64,000 bases of DNA from Spiribacter halobius (GTDB lineage Bacteria > Pseudomonadota > Gammaproteobacteria > Nitrococcales > Nitrococcaceae). How positions within the stretch are numbered: position 1 is the first letter of the stretch; every line of letters begins with the position of its first letter. The notes beneath the pieces are model-generated. The model was not told the origin of the DNA. It worked only from the letters and a program-made list of their open reading frames with translations, and ran no database searches. Shown here one piece after another: positions 4,953-45,020 of the stretch. The stretch is from the NCBI RefSeq assembly GCF_020883455.1, contig NZ_CP086615.1:1550001-1614000 (forward strand), read 5' to 3'. A program made the position numbers and the translations under genes.

Positions 4953-7022
4953 ATGCCGGCGTTTACTCGGCGGAGAGCATGCGGGCTGCTCGCGGGGCTG
5001 CTGGCGCTCGGGGGCGCGAGTGCACAGGATGAGACGGCCGAGGATGAGCCCGTGGTGGTGGATCCGATCACGGTGAGCGCGCCCCGTGTCGAGCGCGCCC
5101 TCCAGGAGACCCCGGCAGCGGTCACCGTGGTGGACGGCGAGACCTTCCGCGAGGGGCGGCAGCGCCTGGCGCTGGACGAGGCCCTGAACCGCGTCCCCGG
5201 CCTCTACTTCCAGAACCGCTACAACTTTGCCCAGAACCTGCGGCTCTCCACCCGGGGCTTCGGCGCCCGGGCGCCGTTCGGCATCCGGGGTATCCGCATC
5301 CGCGTGGACGGTTTCCCCGAGACGCTGCCGGACGGCCAGTCCCAGATCGACGCCGTCGACCTCGACTCCATCACCCGCGCGGAGGTGGTGCGCGGGCCCT
5401 CGTCGGTCCTCTACGGCAACGCCACCGGTGGTGTCATCGATCTCTCCACGGCCACCGGCCGCGAGGACCCCGGTACGAGTGTCACCGCCGAGGCGGGCAG
5501 CTACGATTTCTACAAGCTGGCGGCACGCCAGGGCGGCGTCAGCGGTCCCTGGGCCTACCATGTCAGCGCCTCGGCACTGGACTACGAGGGCTACCGCGAG
5601 CAGAGCGAGACCAGGAAGCGCCTCGGCAACTTCAGCGTCAGCCGGGAGCTCGGCGGCGACCGCCGCCTGCGCGCCGTGCTGACGGTGCTGGACAACCCGG
5701 AGTCGGAGGATCCCTCGGCGCTGACGCTGGAGGAGGTACGTGAGGACCGCCGGCAGGCGCGGGACATTGCCGTCACCCTGGATTCGGGTCAGGAGGTGGA
5801 GCAGCAGCGCCTCGGCCTGATCTACGAGGACGCTGACGCCGCCGGCGGGCAGCTCACCCTGCGCGGCTTCTACACACGCCGGGACTTCGAGCAGCAGTTG
5901 CCGTTTCCGGGTAACAGCCTGCTTGGCTTTGACCGCGACTTCTTTGGCGTCGGTGCGGAGTATGCCCGGAGTGCGAGCCTGTTCGGTCAGCCGTTCCGAT
6001 ATGTCACCGGTGTCGAGGTGGATCGGCAGATCGATGATCGTGACCGCTTCAGCGTGGACGGCACGGGCACGCAGACCGGCCGGACACAGGAGGAAGAGCA
6101 GCAGGCAACGGCGTCGGGCGCTTTCCTGCAGGGTGATCTGGATGTGACCGATCGCCTCACGGCCTCGCTCGGTGCGCGCGTCGACCGGGTTCGTTTCGAG
6201 GTCGATGACCGTTTCCTCGGTGATGGAAGAGACGATACGGGCAGCCGCACGTTCGAGGAGGTCAGCGGGAGCGCCGGGCTTCTGTACCGGCTGACCCCGG
6301 ATCACAGCCTTTATGCGACGGTCTCTACAGCCTTCGAGACCCCCACGTTCACCGAATTCGCGAAGCGTGACGGTACTGGCGGGCTGAGCGAGGAGATCGA
6401 TCCCCAGGAGGCCTTCAATCGCGAGATCGGCGCCCGCGGGTTCCTCGCGGATAGCGTCCGCTACGAGGTCGCGGTGTTCTCAGTCGCCGTCGATGACGAG
6501 CTGATCGTCGACGGCGATGTGGATGGCCGTGATTTTTATGAGAATGCCGGGGCTACCAGCCGGGACGGACTGGAAATCGGGCTTGAGTGGTTCGCGACCG
6601 ATGCCTTCACGGTGAACGCGGCGTATACCTATGGCCGCTACCGGTTCGATCGCTTCGTGGATGTGGACGGCAATGATTTCGCCGGCAACCGCATCCCGGG
6701 GCTGCCCAGGCATCAGCTCTACCTCGAGGGCCTGTGGGAAGGGTCGAATGGCTGGTACGCCGCGCTTGATGGCCAGATCGTCGGCCCGGTGTTCGCGGAC
6801 AATGCCAATGATGTCGAGGTGTCCGGTTACGGCGTCTGGAATCTGCGTGGCGGTCGTGAATGGGGGCTGTCGGGCGGTCGCCGGGTCGAGGTCTTTGGTG
6901 GCGTCAACAATCTGTTTGATAAGGAATACTTTGCGAACATCCGCGCCAACGCGTTCGGCGGGCGGTATTACGAGCCTGCGCCGGAGGCCAACGCCTATGT
7001 GGGTGCTACGTTGACGTTTTAG
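4953..7022 (+). CDS. TonB-dependent outer-membrane receptor
   Basis: This is a 689-residue receptor with a signal peptide (residues 1-24), a plug domain (about 35-150: TPAAVTVVDGETFREG, VPGLYFQNRYN, EVVRGPSSVLYGNATGGVI) and a 22-strand-type barrel. It ends in VGATLTF with the terminal phenylalanine required for Bam recognition. GAGGAGAG precedes the ATG at good spacing. The RGFGARAPFGIRGIRIRVDG plug and overall length match ferric-siderophore or iron-chelate receptors, but the ligand is not readable from sequence. No TonB or siderophore genes are adjacent, and I see no convincing Fur box in the 110 bases upstream. Confidence 0.88.
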   Translation: MPAFTRRRACGLLAGLLALGGASAQDETAEDEPVVVDPITVSAPRVERALQETPAAVTVVDGETFREGRQRLALDEALNRVPGLYFQNRYNFAQNLRLSTRGFGARAPFGIRGIRIRVDGFPETLPDGQSQIDAVDLDSITRAEVVRGPSSVLYGNATGGVIDLSTATGREDPGTSVTAEAGSYDFYKLAARQGGVSGPWAYHVSASALDYEGYREQSETRKRLGNFSVSRELGGDRRLRAVLTVLDNPESEDPSALTLEEVREDRRQARDIAVTLDSGQEVEQQRLGLIYEDADAAGGQLTLRGFYTRRDFEQQLPFPGNSLLGFDRDFFGVGAEYARSASLFGQPFRYVTGVEVDRQIDDRDRFSVDGTGTQTGRTQEEEQQATASGAFLQGDLDVTDRLTASLGARVDRVRFEVDDRFLGDGRDDTGSRTFEEVSGSAGLLYRLTPDHSLYATVSTAFETPTFTEFAKRDGTGGLSEEIDPQEAFNREIGARGFLADSVRYEVAVFSVAVDDELIVDGDVDGRDFYENAGATSRDGLEIGLEWFATDAFTVNAAYTYGRYRFDRFVDVDGNDFAGNRIPGLPRHQLYLEGLWEGSNGWYAALDGQIVGPVFADNANDVEVSGYGVWNLRGGREWGLSGGRRVEVFGGVNNLFDKEYFANIRANAFGGRYYEPAPEANAYVGATLTF

Positions 7023-7053
7023 CCCGCAGCCGTGAATCGGTGAGATATGCGGG

Positions 7054-7953
7054 CTAGGCACCGCCACCCTTGGCCAGCAGGGATCGCCAGCTGGCCAGCC
7101 GTTCCGGATGGATCTCGCCGCGGGCGAGGGCGGCGCGCACGGCGCAGCCCGGCTCGCGGTCATGGCGGCAGTCGCGGAACCGGCACTGCCCGGCGCGTTC
7201 GGTGATCTCCGGGAATCCACGCGTGATCGCTTCGGGCGGGAAGTGCTCGAGGCGCAGCGTGCGTACACCGGGGGAATCGATCAGGCAGCCACCGCCGGGC
7301 AGCGGATGCAGCGTCGTGGTGCTGGTGGTGTGCCGGCCCTGGCCGCTGGTTTCGGACAGGGTCCCGGTACGCACGTCGAGGTCTGGCACCAGGGCGCGGG
7401 CGAGCGATGATTTGCCCACCCCGGACTGCCCGACCAGGATCACCGTCTCCTCGGCGAGCGCCTGTCGCAGCTCCGCCAGCCCGGCGCCGGTGGCCGCGCT
7501 GCCGGTGAGGATGCGTTCTCCGAGAGCCTCGTAGGGCGCCAGGGCCGCCGTCACTCTCGCCCGCCCGGCCGTGTCCAGCTGGTCGGCCTTGTTGAGGAAG
7601 ATCAGCGCCGCCAGGGAGAGCGAGTGCGTCAGGACCAGGTAGCGGTCCAGCAGACGCGTATCGAGGCCCGGCGGGTCGGCGAGCACGACCACGAGCCGGG
7701 TGACGTTGGCCGCCAGTGGGCGCGGCCGCCCGCGGAAATCGCCGCGCTCGATGACGCTCACCCGCGGCTCGATGCGCTCGACCACGCCCTCGCCACCGCT
7801 CTCCCGCCACACCACGCGATCGCCGCACACCGGCCGCGCCGAGCGGCCGCCGCGGCGGCGCAGATGGCAGCGCAGCAGACGGCCGTCGGCCGCCTCGACG
7901 ATGCAGTCGCTGCCAAAGCTTGCCACGACCAGCCCGGCCTGTTCCCCGTTCAT
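7054..7953 (-). CDS. rsgA: Ribosome small-subunit-dependent GTPase A
   Basis: This circularly permuted GTPase (299 residues) checks late 30S subunit assembly. An N-terminal OB fold ([10 protein letters not shown]) is followed by permuted G motifs: G4 NKAD (about 120), G1 GQSGVGKSS (about 175), the hydrophobic switch GRHTTSTT, and G3 DSPGVR. The C-terminal zinc knuckle is [14 protein letters not shown]. Length and order are normal for the family. It converges on the TonB receptor with a ~30-base gap and diverges from orn, the usual rsgA/orn pairing in gammaproteobacteria. Confidence 0.97.
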
Positions 7954-42630: not shown

Positions 42631-43509
42631 TCAGGGCGGCGTCGCGTCCCCCCAGCGCAGCTTGGCGCGGAGGATGTCGAAATACCGGTAGCGCGGCGGG
42701 TGGACCAGGTGCACCCGTGCCTGGCGGCGGGTCACCACGATACGCCCCCCGTTGACGAGGCCGAGGTCTTCCTGGCTATCGCAGCTTACCCGGATCTGCT
42801 GGATGGAGTCGCTGTTCACCACCACCTCCACGGTGCTGGCGGCGCTGATCACCAGGGGGCGGTTACTCAGTGTGTGCGGGCAGATGGGCACCAGCGCCAC
42901 GGCCTCGAGGTCGGGGTGGACCACCGGGCCGCCGCCGGACATGGCGTAGGCCGTCGAGCCGGTGGGCGTGCAGATGATGAGCCCGTCGGAGCGGTGTCGG
43001 TTGCAGAGCTCGCCGTCGATCCAGGTCTCGAACTCGACCATGCGGGCGGTGTTCCACTTGTGCAGAACCACTTCGTTCAGCGCCATGCCTTCGCTGATCA
43101 CCTGGTCGCCGCGACAGATCCGGGCGCTGAGCAGGAGCCGGTCGTCGGCGATATAGTCGCCGTCGAGGACGGCGTCGATCTCGTCCAGCCGCCCGGGCGA
43201 GACGTCCACCAGGAACCCGAGCCGGCCGCGGTTGATGCCGAGCAGGGGGATGTCGTGATCCGCCACCAGGCGCGCGGCCCGCAGCAGGGTGCCGTCGCCG
43301 CCGACGGCGATCAGCAGGTCCACCCCGTGCAGCAGGGCATCGCGACCGATGCGCGGGGTGTCCCCGTGGCGGTCCACGCTCACCGAGTCGGCATCCAGCA
43401 GCACGCGGCGGTTGCTTGCCTGCAGATGGGCGATCAGCCGGTCGATGGTCTCGCTGACGTCCGGATCGCTCGGTTTGCCGGTAATGGCGATGGTCTGGAA
43501 GGGCTGCAT
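42631..43509 (-). CDS. nadK: NAD kinase
   Basis: The 292-residue enzyme phosphorylates NAD to NADP. The GGDG motif is in LIAVGGDGTLLRAARLV, and GMALNEVVLHK supplies the NE motif. TPTGSTAYAMSGGGPVVHP and PHTLSNRPLVI are also diagnostic. The ATG at 43509 is two bases from the 266-bp palindromic element, whose terminal repeat supplies the AGGA ribosome site. nadK and recN form an operon. Confidence 0.96.
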   Translation of the reverse strand: MQPFQTIAITGKPSDPDVSETIDRLIAHLQASNRRVLLDADSVSVDRHGDTPRIGRDALLHGVDLLIAVGGDGTLLRAARLVADHDIPLLGINRGRLGFLVDVSPGRLDEIDAVLDGDYIADDRLLLSARICRGDQVISEGMALNEVVLHKWNTARMVEFETWIDGELCNRHRSDGLIICTPTGSTAYAMSGGGPVVHPDLEAVALVPICPHTLSNRPLVISAASTVEVVVNSDSIQQIRVSCDSQEDLGLVNGGRIVVTRRQARVHLVHPPRYRYFDILRAKLRWGDATPP

Positions 43510-43511
43510 GC

Positions 43512-43777
43512 ACTCATCCTAGCGAAAGTATTGTCAGGTCTCAGCGGGCCTGTGCGCCGCGGCGGCAAGGCGCGAGGCGCGCAGTGTAGCCGAGCTACAT
43601 AAGCGGCGAGCAACGCAGTCCGCCGCGGCGCACAGGCCCGCCCTGCGGGAGCCCCGGAGCGGGCCGGCGGCGGCGTTGCGCTCGCTTGACGTGGAATCAC
43701 CACGCGGGCGCTCCCGCGCCTTGCCGCCGGCCCGCTCCGGGGCTCTGAGACCTGACAATACTTTCGCTAGGATGAGT
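43512..43777. repeat. 266-bp MITE-like composite palindrome between nadK and hrcA
   Basis: Terminal inverted repeats of 33 bp (43512-43544 and 43745-43777) are perfectly complementary. Inside are two self-complementary blocks. The first (43544-43641) has perfect 22-bp arms and an inner TGTAGC-CGA-GCTACA hairpin (43585-43599). The second (43650-43744) has perfect 22-bp arms and an inner CGTGG-AATCA-CCACG hairpin (43690-43704). The blocks are diverged inverted copies of one another: both read GGCGGCAAGGCGCG...AAGCG...AACGC in opposite directions. No open frame of note and no obvious target duplication are seen. Confidence 0.9.
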
Positions 43778-43850
43778 AAGGTCCCGCCGCGATGTGCGGC
43801 AACGGTAGCACTTCGCCGGTGGGGGGCCAATCGGCCCCGCGGGCGCCAAA

Positions 43851-43879
43851 TTGACAGCCCCCGGGGGCATTGATAGCGT
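43851..43879 (+). promoter_or_regulatory. Sigma70-like promoter of the hrcA operon
   Basis: TTGACA (43851-43856) is followed after 17 bases by TAGCGT (43874-43879). It lies directly upstream of the CIRCE operator, so a bound HrcA would block the promoter start region. Confidence 0.6.
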
Positions 43880-43883
43880 CAAT

Positions 43884-43910
43884 CTGGCACTCCCGGCCGG
43901 CGAGTGCCAA
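43884..43910. promoter_or_regulatory. CIRCE operator (HrcA binding site)
   Basis: CTGGCACTC-N9-GAGTGCCAA matches the CIRCE consensus TTAGCACTC-N9-GAGTGCTAA at nearly all positions, with the GCACTC/GAGTGC cores exact. It lies 52 bases before hrcA and implies autoregulated heat-shock control of hrcA-grpE-dnaK. Confidence 0.92.
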
Positions 43911-43961
43911 TCCTGCTCGCAGTCACTGGCGCCACCGGGAGGCGCATATAGCGGAGTGGCC

Positions 43962-45020
43962 ATGGCCCGGAGAAGCGGAGACCCGGTATTGAGCGAACGC
44001 GCTCAGCGCCTGCTGAAGGCGCTGGTACACCGCTATATCCGGGACGGCCAGCCGGTGGGCTCCCGGGTGCTGACCCGCGAGTCCGGCCTGGACCTGAGCC
44101 CCGCTACCGTGCGCAACGTCATGGCCGATCTGGAGGAGGCCGGGTATATCCGGGCCCCGCACACCTCGGCCGGGCGCGTACCCACGGACCGGGGCTATCG
44201 CTTCTTCGTGGATTCCCTGCTCACCGCGAAGCCCCTGCAAGGGCCGGACGTGGAGCGGCTGAGCATTCGCCTCGACGGCGAGGGCGACACCGAGCATCTC
44301 CTCGACTCCGCCTCCAACCTGCTCTCGGGGCTCACCCGGCTGGCCGGCGTGGTCACCCTGCCCAAGCACGGCTTCGGGGCGATCCGCCATCTGGAGTTTC
44401 TGCCGCTCTCGGAGCGGCGGATCCTGGCGATCCTGGTACTGAACGATCACGAGGTGCAGAACCGCGTGATCCACGCCGATCGCGACTACAGCGCCGCCGA
44501 GCTGCAGCAGGTATCCAACTATCTCAGCGCGGAGTTCGCCGGCAAGAGCGTGAGCGAGGTGCGGCGGGCGCTGCTGGAGGCCATGCGGGCCGATCAGCAG
44601 GACATGAACCGGCTGATGAGCGCGGCCATCGCCGTCGCCCGGCAGCTGTTCGAGGAGGAGGACGCCGAGGGCGGGGAGGATTTCGTGCTCGCCGGCGAGA
44701 CCAACCTCATGACCTTCGCCGAGCTCTCCAGCGTGGACAAGCTGAAGGAGCTGTTCGAGGCCTTCAGCCGCAAGCGCGACATCCTCCACCTCCTGGACCG
44801 CTGCCTGGCCGCCGAGGGCATCCAGATCTTCATCGGCGAGGAGTCCGGCTACGAGGCCTTCGACGGGATGAGCCTGGTCACCTCCACCTACCGCAGCGAT
44901 GACGAAGTGCTCGGCGTGCTCGGTGTCATCGGGCCGACGCGAATGGACTATGACCGGGTCATCCCCATCGTCGACGTCACCGCCCGATTGCTCGGCCATG
45001 CCTTGAAACCCGGGCATTGA
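43962..45020 (+). CDS. hrcA: Heat-inducible transcription repressor HrcA
   Basis: This is a 352-residue repressor of class I heat-shock genes. The winged helix is seen in LSERAQRLLKALVHRYIRDG, SPATVRNVMADLEEAGYIRA and PHTSAGRVPTDRGYRFFVD. The GAF-like domain ends VIGPTRMDYDRVIPIVD. The start at 43962 has GGAG six bases upstream; an in-frame TTG at 43851 lies in the promoter and is discounted. Confidence 0.96.
   Translation: MARRSGDPVLSERAQRLLKALVHRYIRDGQPVGSRVLTRESGLDLSPATVRNVMADLEEAGYIRAPHTSAGRVPTDRGYRFFVDSLLTAKPLQGPDVERLSIRLDGEGDTEHLLDSASNLLSGLTRLAGVVTLPKHGFGAIRHLEFLPLSERRILAILVLNDHEVQNRVIHADRDYSAAELQQVSNYLSAEFAGKSVSEVRRALLEAMRADQQDMNRLMSAAIAVARQLFEEEDAEGGEDFVLAGETNLMTFAELSSVDKLKELFEAFSRKRDILHLLDRCLAAEGIQIFIGEESGYEAFDGMSLVTSTYRSDDEVLGVLGVIGPTRMDYDRVIPIVDVTARLLGHALKPGH

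Follow-up and report, generated by a model that had tools for sequence, protein, structure and literature searches.

The nadK-hrcA locus and the structure of the element

The window (the whole stretch of DNA analyzed, 64,000 nucleotides from Spiribacter halobius) contains, between two divergent genes, a palindromic sequence of 266 bp (Table 1). These genes and the conserved repeat near them are named nadK, hrcA and CIRCE here, which we take to be the appropriate names for this region. The CIRCE-like repeat lies inside the mechanically delimited open frame that holds hrcA, so the true start of hrcA is later.

An earlier note, made from the sequence of this DNA alone, described the 266-bp sequence as a MITE-like element with perfect 33-bp terminal inverted repeats that enclose two blocks, diverged inverted copies of one another, each with a perfect 22-bp stem and a small inner hairpin, and as devoid of coding capacity. 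All of this description could be reproduced except for one stem length: the stems of both blocks are perfect, and that of block B is 23 bp long. The inner hairpins are TGTAG..CTACA (43585-43599) and CGTGG..CCACG (43690-43704), the alignment of the element with itself in inverted orientation is at 73%, and the open frames within it are short and incidental, with no transposase of its own. An additional, third small hairpin is located between the blocks. Folded as DNA, the element reaches -139 kcal/mol compared to -70.1 +/- 4.0 kcal/mol in 200 shuffled sequences (z -17.35); the structure is real and far exceeds what chance produces. By the convention used for IS630 elements, the outermost A/T of the terminal repeat is one half of the flanking TA. 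Under this convention, the element proper extends from approximately 43513 to 43776 (approximately 264 bp), with CA at the left border and TA at the right border, the left CA presumably being a mutated TA.

Table 1. Features of the nadK-hrcA locus, in coordinates of the window
Feature	Position	Strand	Remark
nadK (NAD kinase), host gene	42631..43509	-	start codon 2 bp from the left border of the 33-bp repeat
Left flanking dinucleotide, presumed target-site TA	43511..43512	.	CA at this site, although the majority of copies have TA
Left terminal inverted repeat, 33 bp	43512..43544	+	IS885-type end TACTAA..(7 bp)..AAGTATTGTCA
AGGA in left repeat, candidate Shine-Dalgarno sequence for nadK	43517..43520	-	7 nt before ATG; predicted
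Block A	43544..43641	+	22-bp stem 43544-43565/43620-43641 around CAAGGCGCG..GTAG..CTAC..GCAACGC
Mini hairpin CCCtgcGGG, between blocks	43641..43649	+	comparable spacers in other copies, by eye
Block B, inverted relative to block A	43649..43745	-	23-bp stem 43649-43671/43723-43745 around CAAGGCGCG..GTGG..CCAC..GCAACGC
Right terminal inverted repeat, 33 bp	43745..43777	-	sequence
Right flanking TA	43777..43778	.	sequence
ORF holding hrcA, divergent neighbor	43851..45020	+	CIRCE-like GCACTC-N9-GAGTGC at 43887-43907 inside the ORF

Dispersed copies and their distribution

Copies that have matching ends and lie at distinct sites, which the earlier note had named as the mark of a mobile family, were found in the genome of origin. 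This genome (G000; 4.17 Mb in one contig) holds five further near-full copies elsewhere (93-97% identity), along with a variant of the element in which block A is replaced by another hairpin, and the inner end pattern, when up to 3 mismatches are allowed, matches it 34 times (the reversed-pattern control, 0 times). Using a sequence model of the end, we detected matches in 16 of the 54 genomes of the order at E<=0.01 and, at E<=3e-4, in 4 of a sample of 369 genomes from the class, the genome of origin being included in both counts and all the other genomes searched belonging to different genera. Two of the four class-level genomes are from outside the order; in one of these two, G207, an intact one-block copy of 178 bp is present. 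Genome G046 contains many 140-bp copies (L142-L151 and L282-L285), often at contig ends, that combine the ends of the family with a different cargo (GGCCGCAGGGATGCGGCC..).

A blastn search with the whole element gave no match in phages or plasmids, and exact end patterns gave 0 matches in the genome-contig and viral-contig collections; one version of the pattern used for each contig collection demanded a C that is missing from many relatives, so the zero matches for that version carry little weight. A search for empty sites corresponding to the G046 copies in 16 contigs of G048 yielded two short matches only, neither usable. Of 20 non-autonomous elements, 13 have the dinucleotide TA at both borders, as do all five IS (CA/TA at nadK); these counts are biased upward because the scan motif itself included TA.

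Several ends stand alone. As judged by eye, the solo 35-bp ends L064, L075, L085, L086, L087 and L092 run as far as the inner border, which reads CTCAG or differs from it by one base, with no cargo beyond; plain decay of a MITE does not predict solo ends with precisely this boundary. At four solo ends of G000 (L064, L075, L087 and L092), the inner CTGAGAC provides the TGA stop codon of the adjoining open frame; at L074 and L086, it is the outer edge, not the inner CTGAGAC, that provides the stop. At L022, L083 and L091, also in G000, a similar end or stem surrounds a REP-like hairpin (GGGAGCGGTCTCCGACCGCGA type), which replaces the usual core.

The ends resemble those of IS885-group IS630 transposons

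Comparison of the 34-nt end consensus with 72,556 plasmid records gave two matches, both in Cupriavidus necator H16 (90.3% identity, E 0.07). This match alone is weak, and its weight rests on its position: in the opened H16 record, it stops 16 bases before the gene for the IS630-like transposase of IS885, a protein that carries a DDE_3 domain, and a second end lies beyond that gene. We then inspected eight IS630 elements, IS885 and seven others, scoring their ends on 21 conserved positions with the 7-bp spacing. In four of the eight, both ends score 18-20 of 21 with the same spacing; among the other four, the ends of one score 18 and 10, and the scores of the remaining three, 13-15, are at the chance level (at most 15 in 300 random windows). 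In the order, an end scoring 17-19 is located directly beside the transposase match at 6 of 14 loci (in G007, G048 and G050), the best end score at the remaining eight being 16 or less. The left end of the Azotobacter IS differs from two G000 copies at 1 of 26 positions.

Because the ends match those of IS885-group IS630 transposons, including the spacing and, in most copies, the flanking TA, we classify the element as an IS630-type MITE, an assignment for which the case is strong. The MITE-like reading of the earlier note gains support from the dispersed copies and is supplemented here with the IS630/IS885 family and with a core that is common to MITEs with unrelated ends. An IS885-like transposase is encoded in 6 of the 54 genomes of the order (G002, G007, G021, G040, G048 and G050), and the sequence model of the end found no match at E<=0.01 in these six. 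None was detected in G000 at E<=1e-10, so the present copies are probably relics or are awaiting re-entry of the IS. By analogy with RUP and IS630-Spn1, for which the same is presumed, the element may have been mobilized in trans by a transposase of the IS630 family.

The two arms change together

The earlier note had guessed at compensating change or recent gene conversion in the stems, and this guess is borne out by doubly changed pairs, by mirroring within elements and by mirrored changes in the G046 copies. In the gap-free alignment of six copies, 10 of 86 base pairs are changed on both sides, as in none of 500 shuffles, and 99.2% of the cells pair; of the 516 cells, 4 are unpaired and 3 are changed on one side only. 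Sliding the pairing partners by 1-3 columns leaves 0-2 doubly changed pairs, a comparison in which the true pairing has an advantage over the slid versions because the reference structure comes from one of the six copies. The 7-bp middle of the end behaves in the same manner: among 20 non-autonomous elements from six genomes (of 21 tried, G046_C47 was excluded, since no right end could be located for it at the end of the contig), identity is 0.907 within elements compared to 0.471 between elements, a level reached in 0 of 5000 re-pairings. For the ten G000 elements alone, the respective values are 0.871 and 0.660 (1 of 5000 re-pairings), and for five autonomous IS of the eight inspected, 0.629 and 0.686 (4532 of 5000). 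Given that the middle differs between the two ends of these five IS, end recognition does not explain the agreement of the arms in the MITEs, which points to copying from arm to arm or to selection for the hairpin.

Six of the G046 copies were compared and bear on the choice between the two. One mirrored change of both arms is common to L282, L284 and L285. In L284, and likewise in L285, there is one more mirrored change that is absent from the other five copies; one-sided differences also occur, in L144, L283 and L284. That the arms of the same MITE are held complementary by selection for a paired hairpin, in RNA processing or in DNA transposition, and not by template switching, is a tentative alternative that we regard as clearly the lesser of the two: it accounts for the pairing of nearly all cells and for the ten doubly changed pairs, but mirrored changes confined to single G046 copies arise more easily through one copying event, and we know of no need for a hairpin on the part of IS630 DDE transposases. 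The five IS, in which the arms are 1.1 kb apart and do not covary, fit template switching and hairpin selection alike. Template switching at inverted repeats is described as a way to homogenize arms and to maintain stems (PMC8794818; PMC8604942; PMC7202029). The element offers a natural test of the survival of long perfect palindromes.

The two-hairpin cargo is common to elements with unrelated ends

Exact matches to the core CAAGGCGCG-N24..54-GCAACGC number 23 in G000 (0 in the control), ten of them in the IS630-type family and 13 in composites with other ends. Five of these 13 bear GGAAGCGCTGATCAATTC ends, and four of the five have identical 4-bp flanks (CTAG in three, TTAA in one), the fifth being flanked by CCAG and CTAC. 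Target duplication by IS5-type elements follows the YTAR rule, and the family with GGAAGCGCTGATCAATTC ends shows the features of IS5-type MITEs, namely, a YTAR 4-bp duplication and IS5-type ends. In all three plasmid records that were opened, GGAAGCGCTGATCAATTC ends are located approximately 120-140 bp from IS5-type transposase genes (one of these labeled 'IS4 family protein'), with CTAG at both borders. The 30-nt query with the IS5-type end returned short, weak matches in 24 plasmid records (E 0.1 to 2), many of them likely due to chance, and a 36-nt query returned no match in plasmids. The other eight composites comprise a third family, with TAGCCCGCATATCTCACCGATTC ends, of which five tested copies with both ends are 449-451 bp long, and the remaining three, some truncated, were assigned by eye; its ends gave one chance-level match in plasmids and none in phages.

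The inner part of the element and that of the IS5-type family are 75.9% identical over 83 bp (44.6 bits; the best of 500 dinucleotide shuffles reached 33.7). We further classified by eye the ends that enclose 20 cargo-matching loci in relatives: five loci are within IS630-like ends, one (L046 in G045) is within IS5-type-like ends, one (L047 in G007) is within another inverted repeat, and two are within the block stem only; for the other 11, no enclosing inverted repeat was found. Judging by sequence, the presence of the same passenger inside MITEs with IS5-type ends makes it an exchangeable module. The occurrence of one palindromic module in MITEs of different transposase families bears on the origin of the internal sequences of bacterial MITEs. 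It is conceivable, albeit doubtful, that the cargo is a selfish palindromic passenger that colonizes MITEs of the IS630 type, of the IS5 type and of at least one more type via insertion or recombination at the hairpin center, its arms being kept by template switching during replication; if so, the cargo would be a parasite of MITEs that lacks both a transposase and ends of its own.

Two further observations concern the third family. Six of its composites in G000 (L206-L209, L220 and L221) include a degenerate element of the IS5-type family in which the IS5-type end sequence is lost but the arms still pair at 31 or all 32 of the 32 positions. In the window itself, a 37-bp palindrome, TAGCCCGCA..TGCGGGCTA (7020-7056), is apparently a minimal form of this family; its first three bases, TAG, read as the stop of the gene before it, which has, by eye, a TonB-receptor-like ending.

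Proposed origin of the element and its position at nadK

Taken as a whole, we consider it highly probable that the element is a non-autonomous MITE of the IS630 superfamily with IS885-type ends and an exchangeable cargo, the arms of which are kept complementary by arm-to-arm copying. The ends would be what an IS885-type DDE transposase recognizes, with the outer part TACTAA(C/T)C and the inner part AAGTATTGTCAG separated by 7 bp. At some earlier time, another source in the same cell would have provided this transposase, which would cleave at both ends and insert the element at a TA. The passenger between the ends consists of the two diverged inverted hairpin blocks and the mini hairpin. As a single long palindrome, the element would keep its arms complementary by copying from one to the other, most likely when replication switches template at the hairpin, which would give rise to the observed mirroring of mutations in both arms. 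At the present site, the element inserted 2 bp from the start codon of nadK, on its upstream side, where it now probably supplies the ribosome-binding AGGA. A NadK match was found in 44 of 59 genomes, the genome of origin included, and the alignments in the other 43 start between residues 1 and 4 (exactly at residue 1 in 21 of them); thus, the nadK start is probably correct, and the native leader has probably been replaced by the element.

A different origin, in which a RAYT (Y1 tyrosine) transposase would move a REPIN-like element in the form of a single-stranded hairpin that requires covarying arms, appears very improbable. Its appeal lies in the hairpin architecture, the mirrored arms, the solo half-elements that resemble REP singlets and three Y1_Tnp matches in G000. 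However, a search of the 54 genomes returned 30 Y1_Tnp loci, and at the 12 inspected, which covered two of the three G000 matches, the end motif is absent beside Y1_Tnp and only scattered 9-10-bp partial core-like matches are seen; G003, with 8 end matches, has no Y1_Tnp match; and the ends of the element fit an IS630 DDE element instead. Mobilization by RAYT was therefore rejected for lack of linkage at these 12 loci.

We examined the nadK loci of the genome of origin and of 29 relatives (30 of the 44 with a NadK match), up to 1500 bp upstream, counting as an end match any sequence within 4 mismatches. An exact CIRCE-like repeat is present upstream of nadK in 26 of the 29 relatives, which makes this region comparable across genomes. 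A fixed regulatory or structural RNA or DNA element of the nadK-hrcA region, as would be indicated by a unique sequence conserved upstream of nadK in relatives and as might be suggested by the compensated stems, the position between divergent genes and the probable nadK ribosome-binding site, is barely credible and is refuted as the primary explanation by the five copies at other sites and by an end match at nadK in 0 of the 29 relatives, with no credible Rfam family (best E 0.5) and no match to a sigma-70-type promoter or terminator at the nadK site (a weak test). A later regulatory role of the MITE at the nadK site alone is possible.

Relationship to known systems

In a limited search of the open-access literature, we found no publication that apparently describes this element or a cargo common to IS630-type and IS5-type elements. 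Among the closest counterparts are IS885 and ISAzo32, two of the four inspected IS630 elements in which both ends match; these carry, as in the present element, TACTAA, a spacer and AAGTA(T/A)TGTCA with the same spacing, and the flanks of the IS are TA. These IS are 1104 bp long, encode a transposase and have unlike 7-bp middles, whereas the middles of the MITEs are mirrored. RUP of Streptococcus pneumoniae is a 107-bp MITE of IS630-Spn1 with 9-bp repeats and TA sites, its transposase presumably acting in trans (PMC2229807). Compared by description, the present element resembles RUP as a short non-coding repeat with IS630-like ends, a presumed TA target and a presumed trans-acting transposase, and differs from it in its size (approximately 264 bp), its 33-bp perfect repeats and a cargo common to other MITE families. 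Correia/NEMIS and ERIC, also non-autonomous repeats with stem-loops, are TA-ended and approximately 100-200 bp long; a cargo across end types is not mentioned for them in the description that we compared (PMC2229807). REPINs or BIMEs with RAYT are described as hairpin-forming inverted doublets along with singlets (PMC3116915), but the ends of the present element are of the IS630 type, not GTAG REPs, and linkage to RAYT is absent at the 12 loci inspected. The element is thus a new family of a known kind, the IS630-type MITEs, and two of its properties go beyond the usual description of a MITE: the concerted change of its arms, which is independent of end recognition, and a cargo that it has in common with MITEs of other transposase families.
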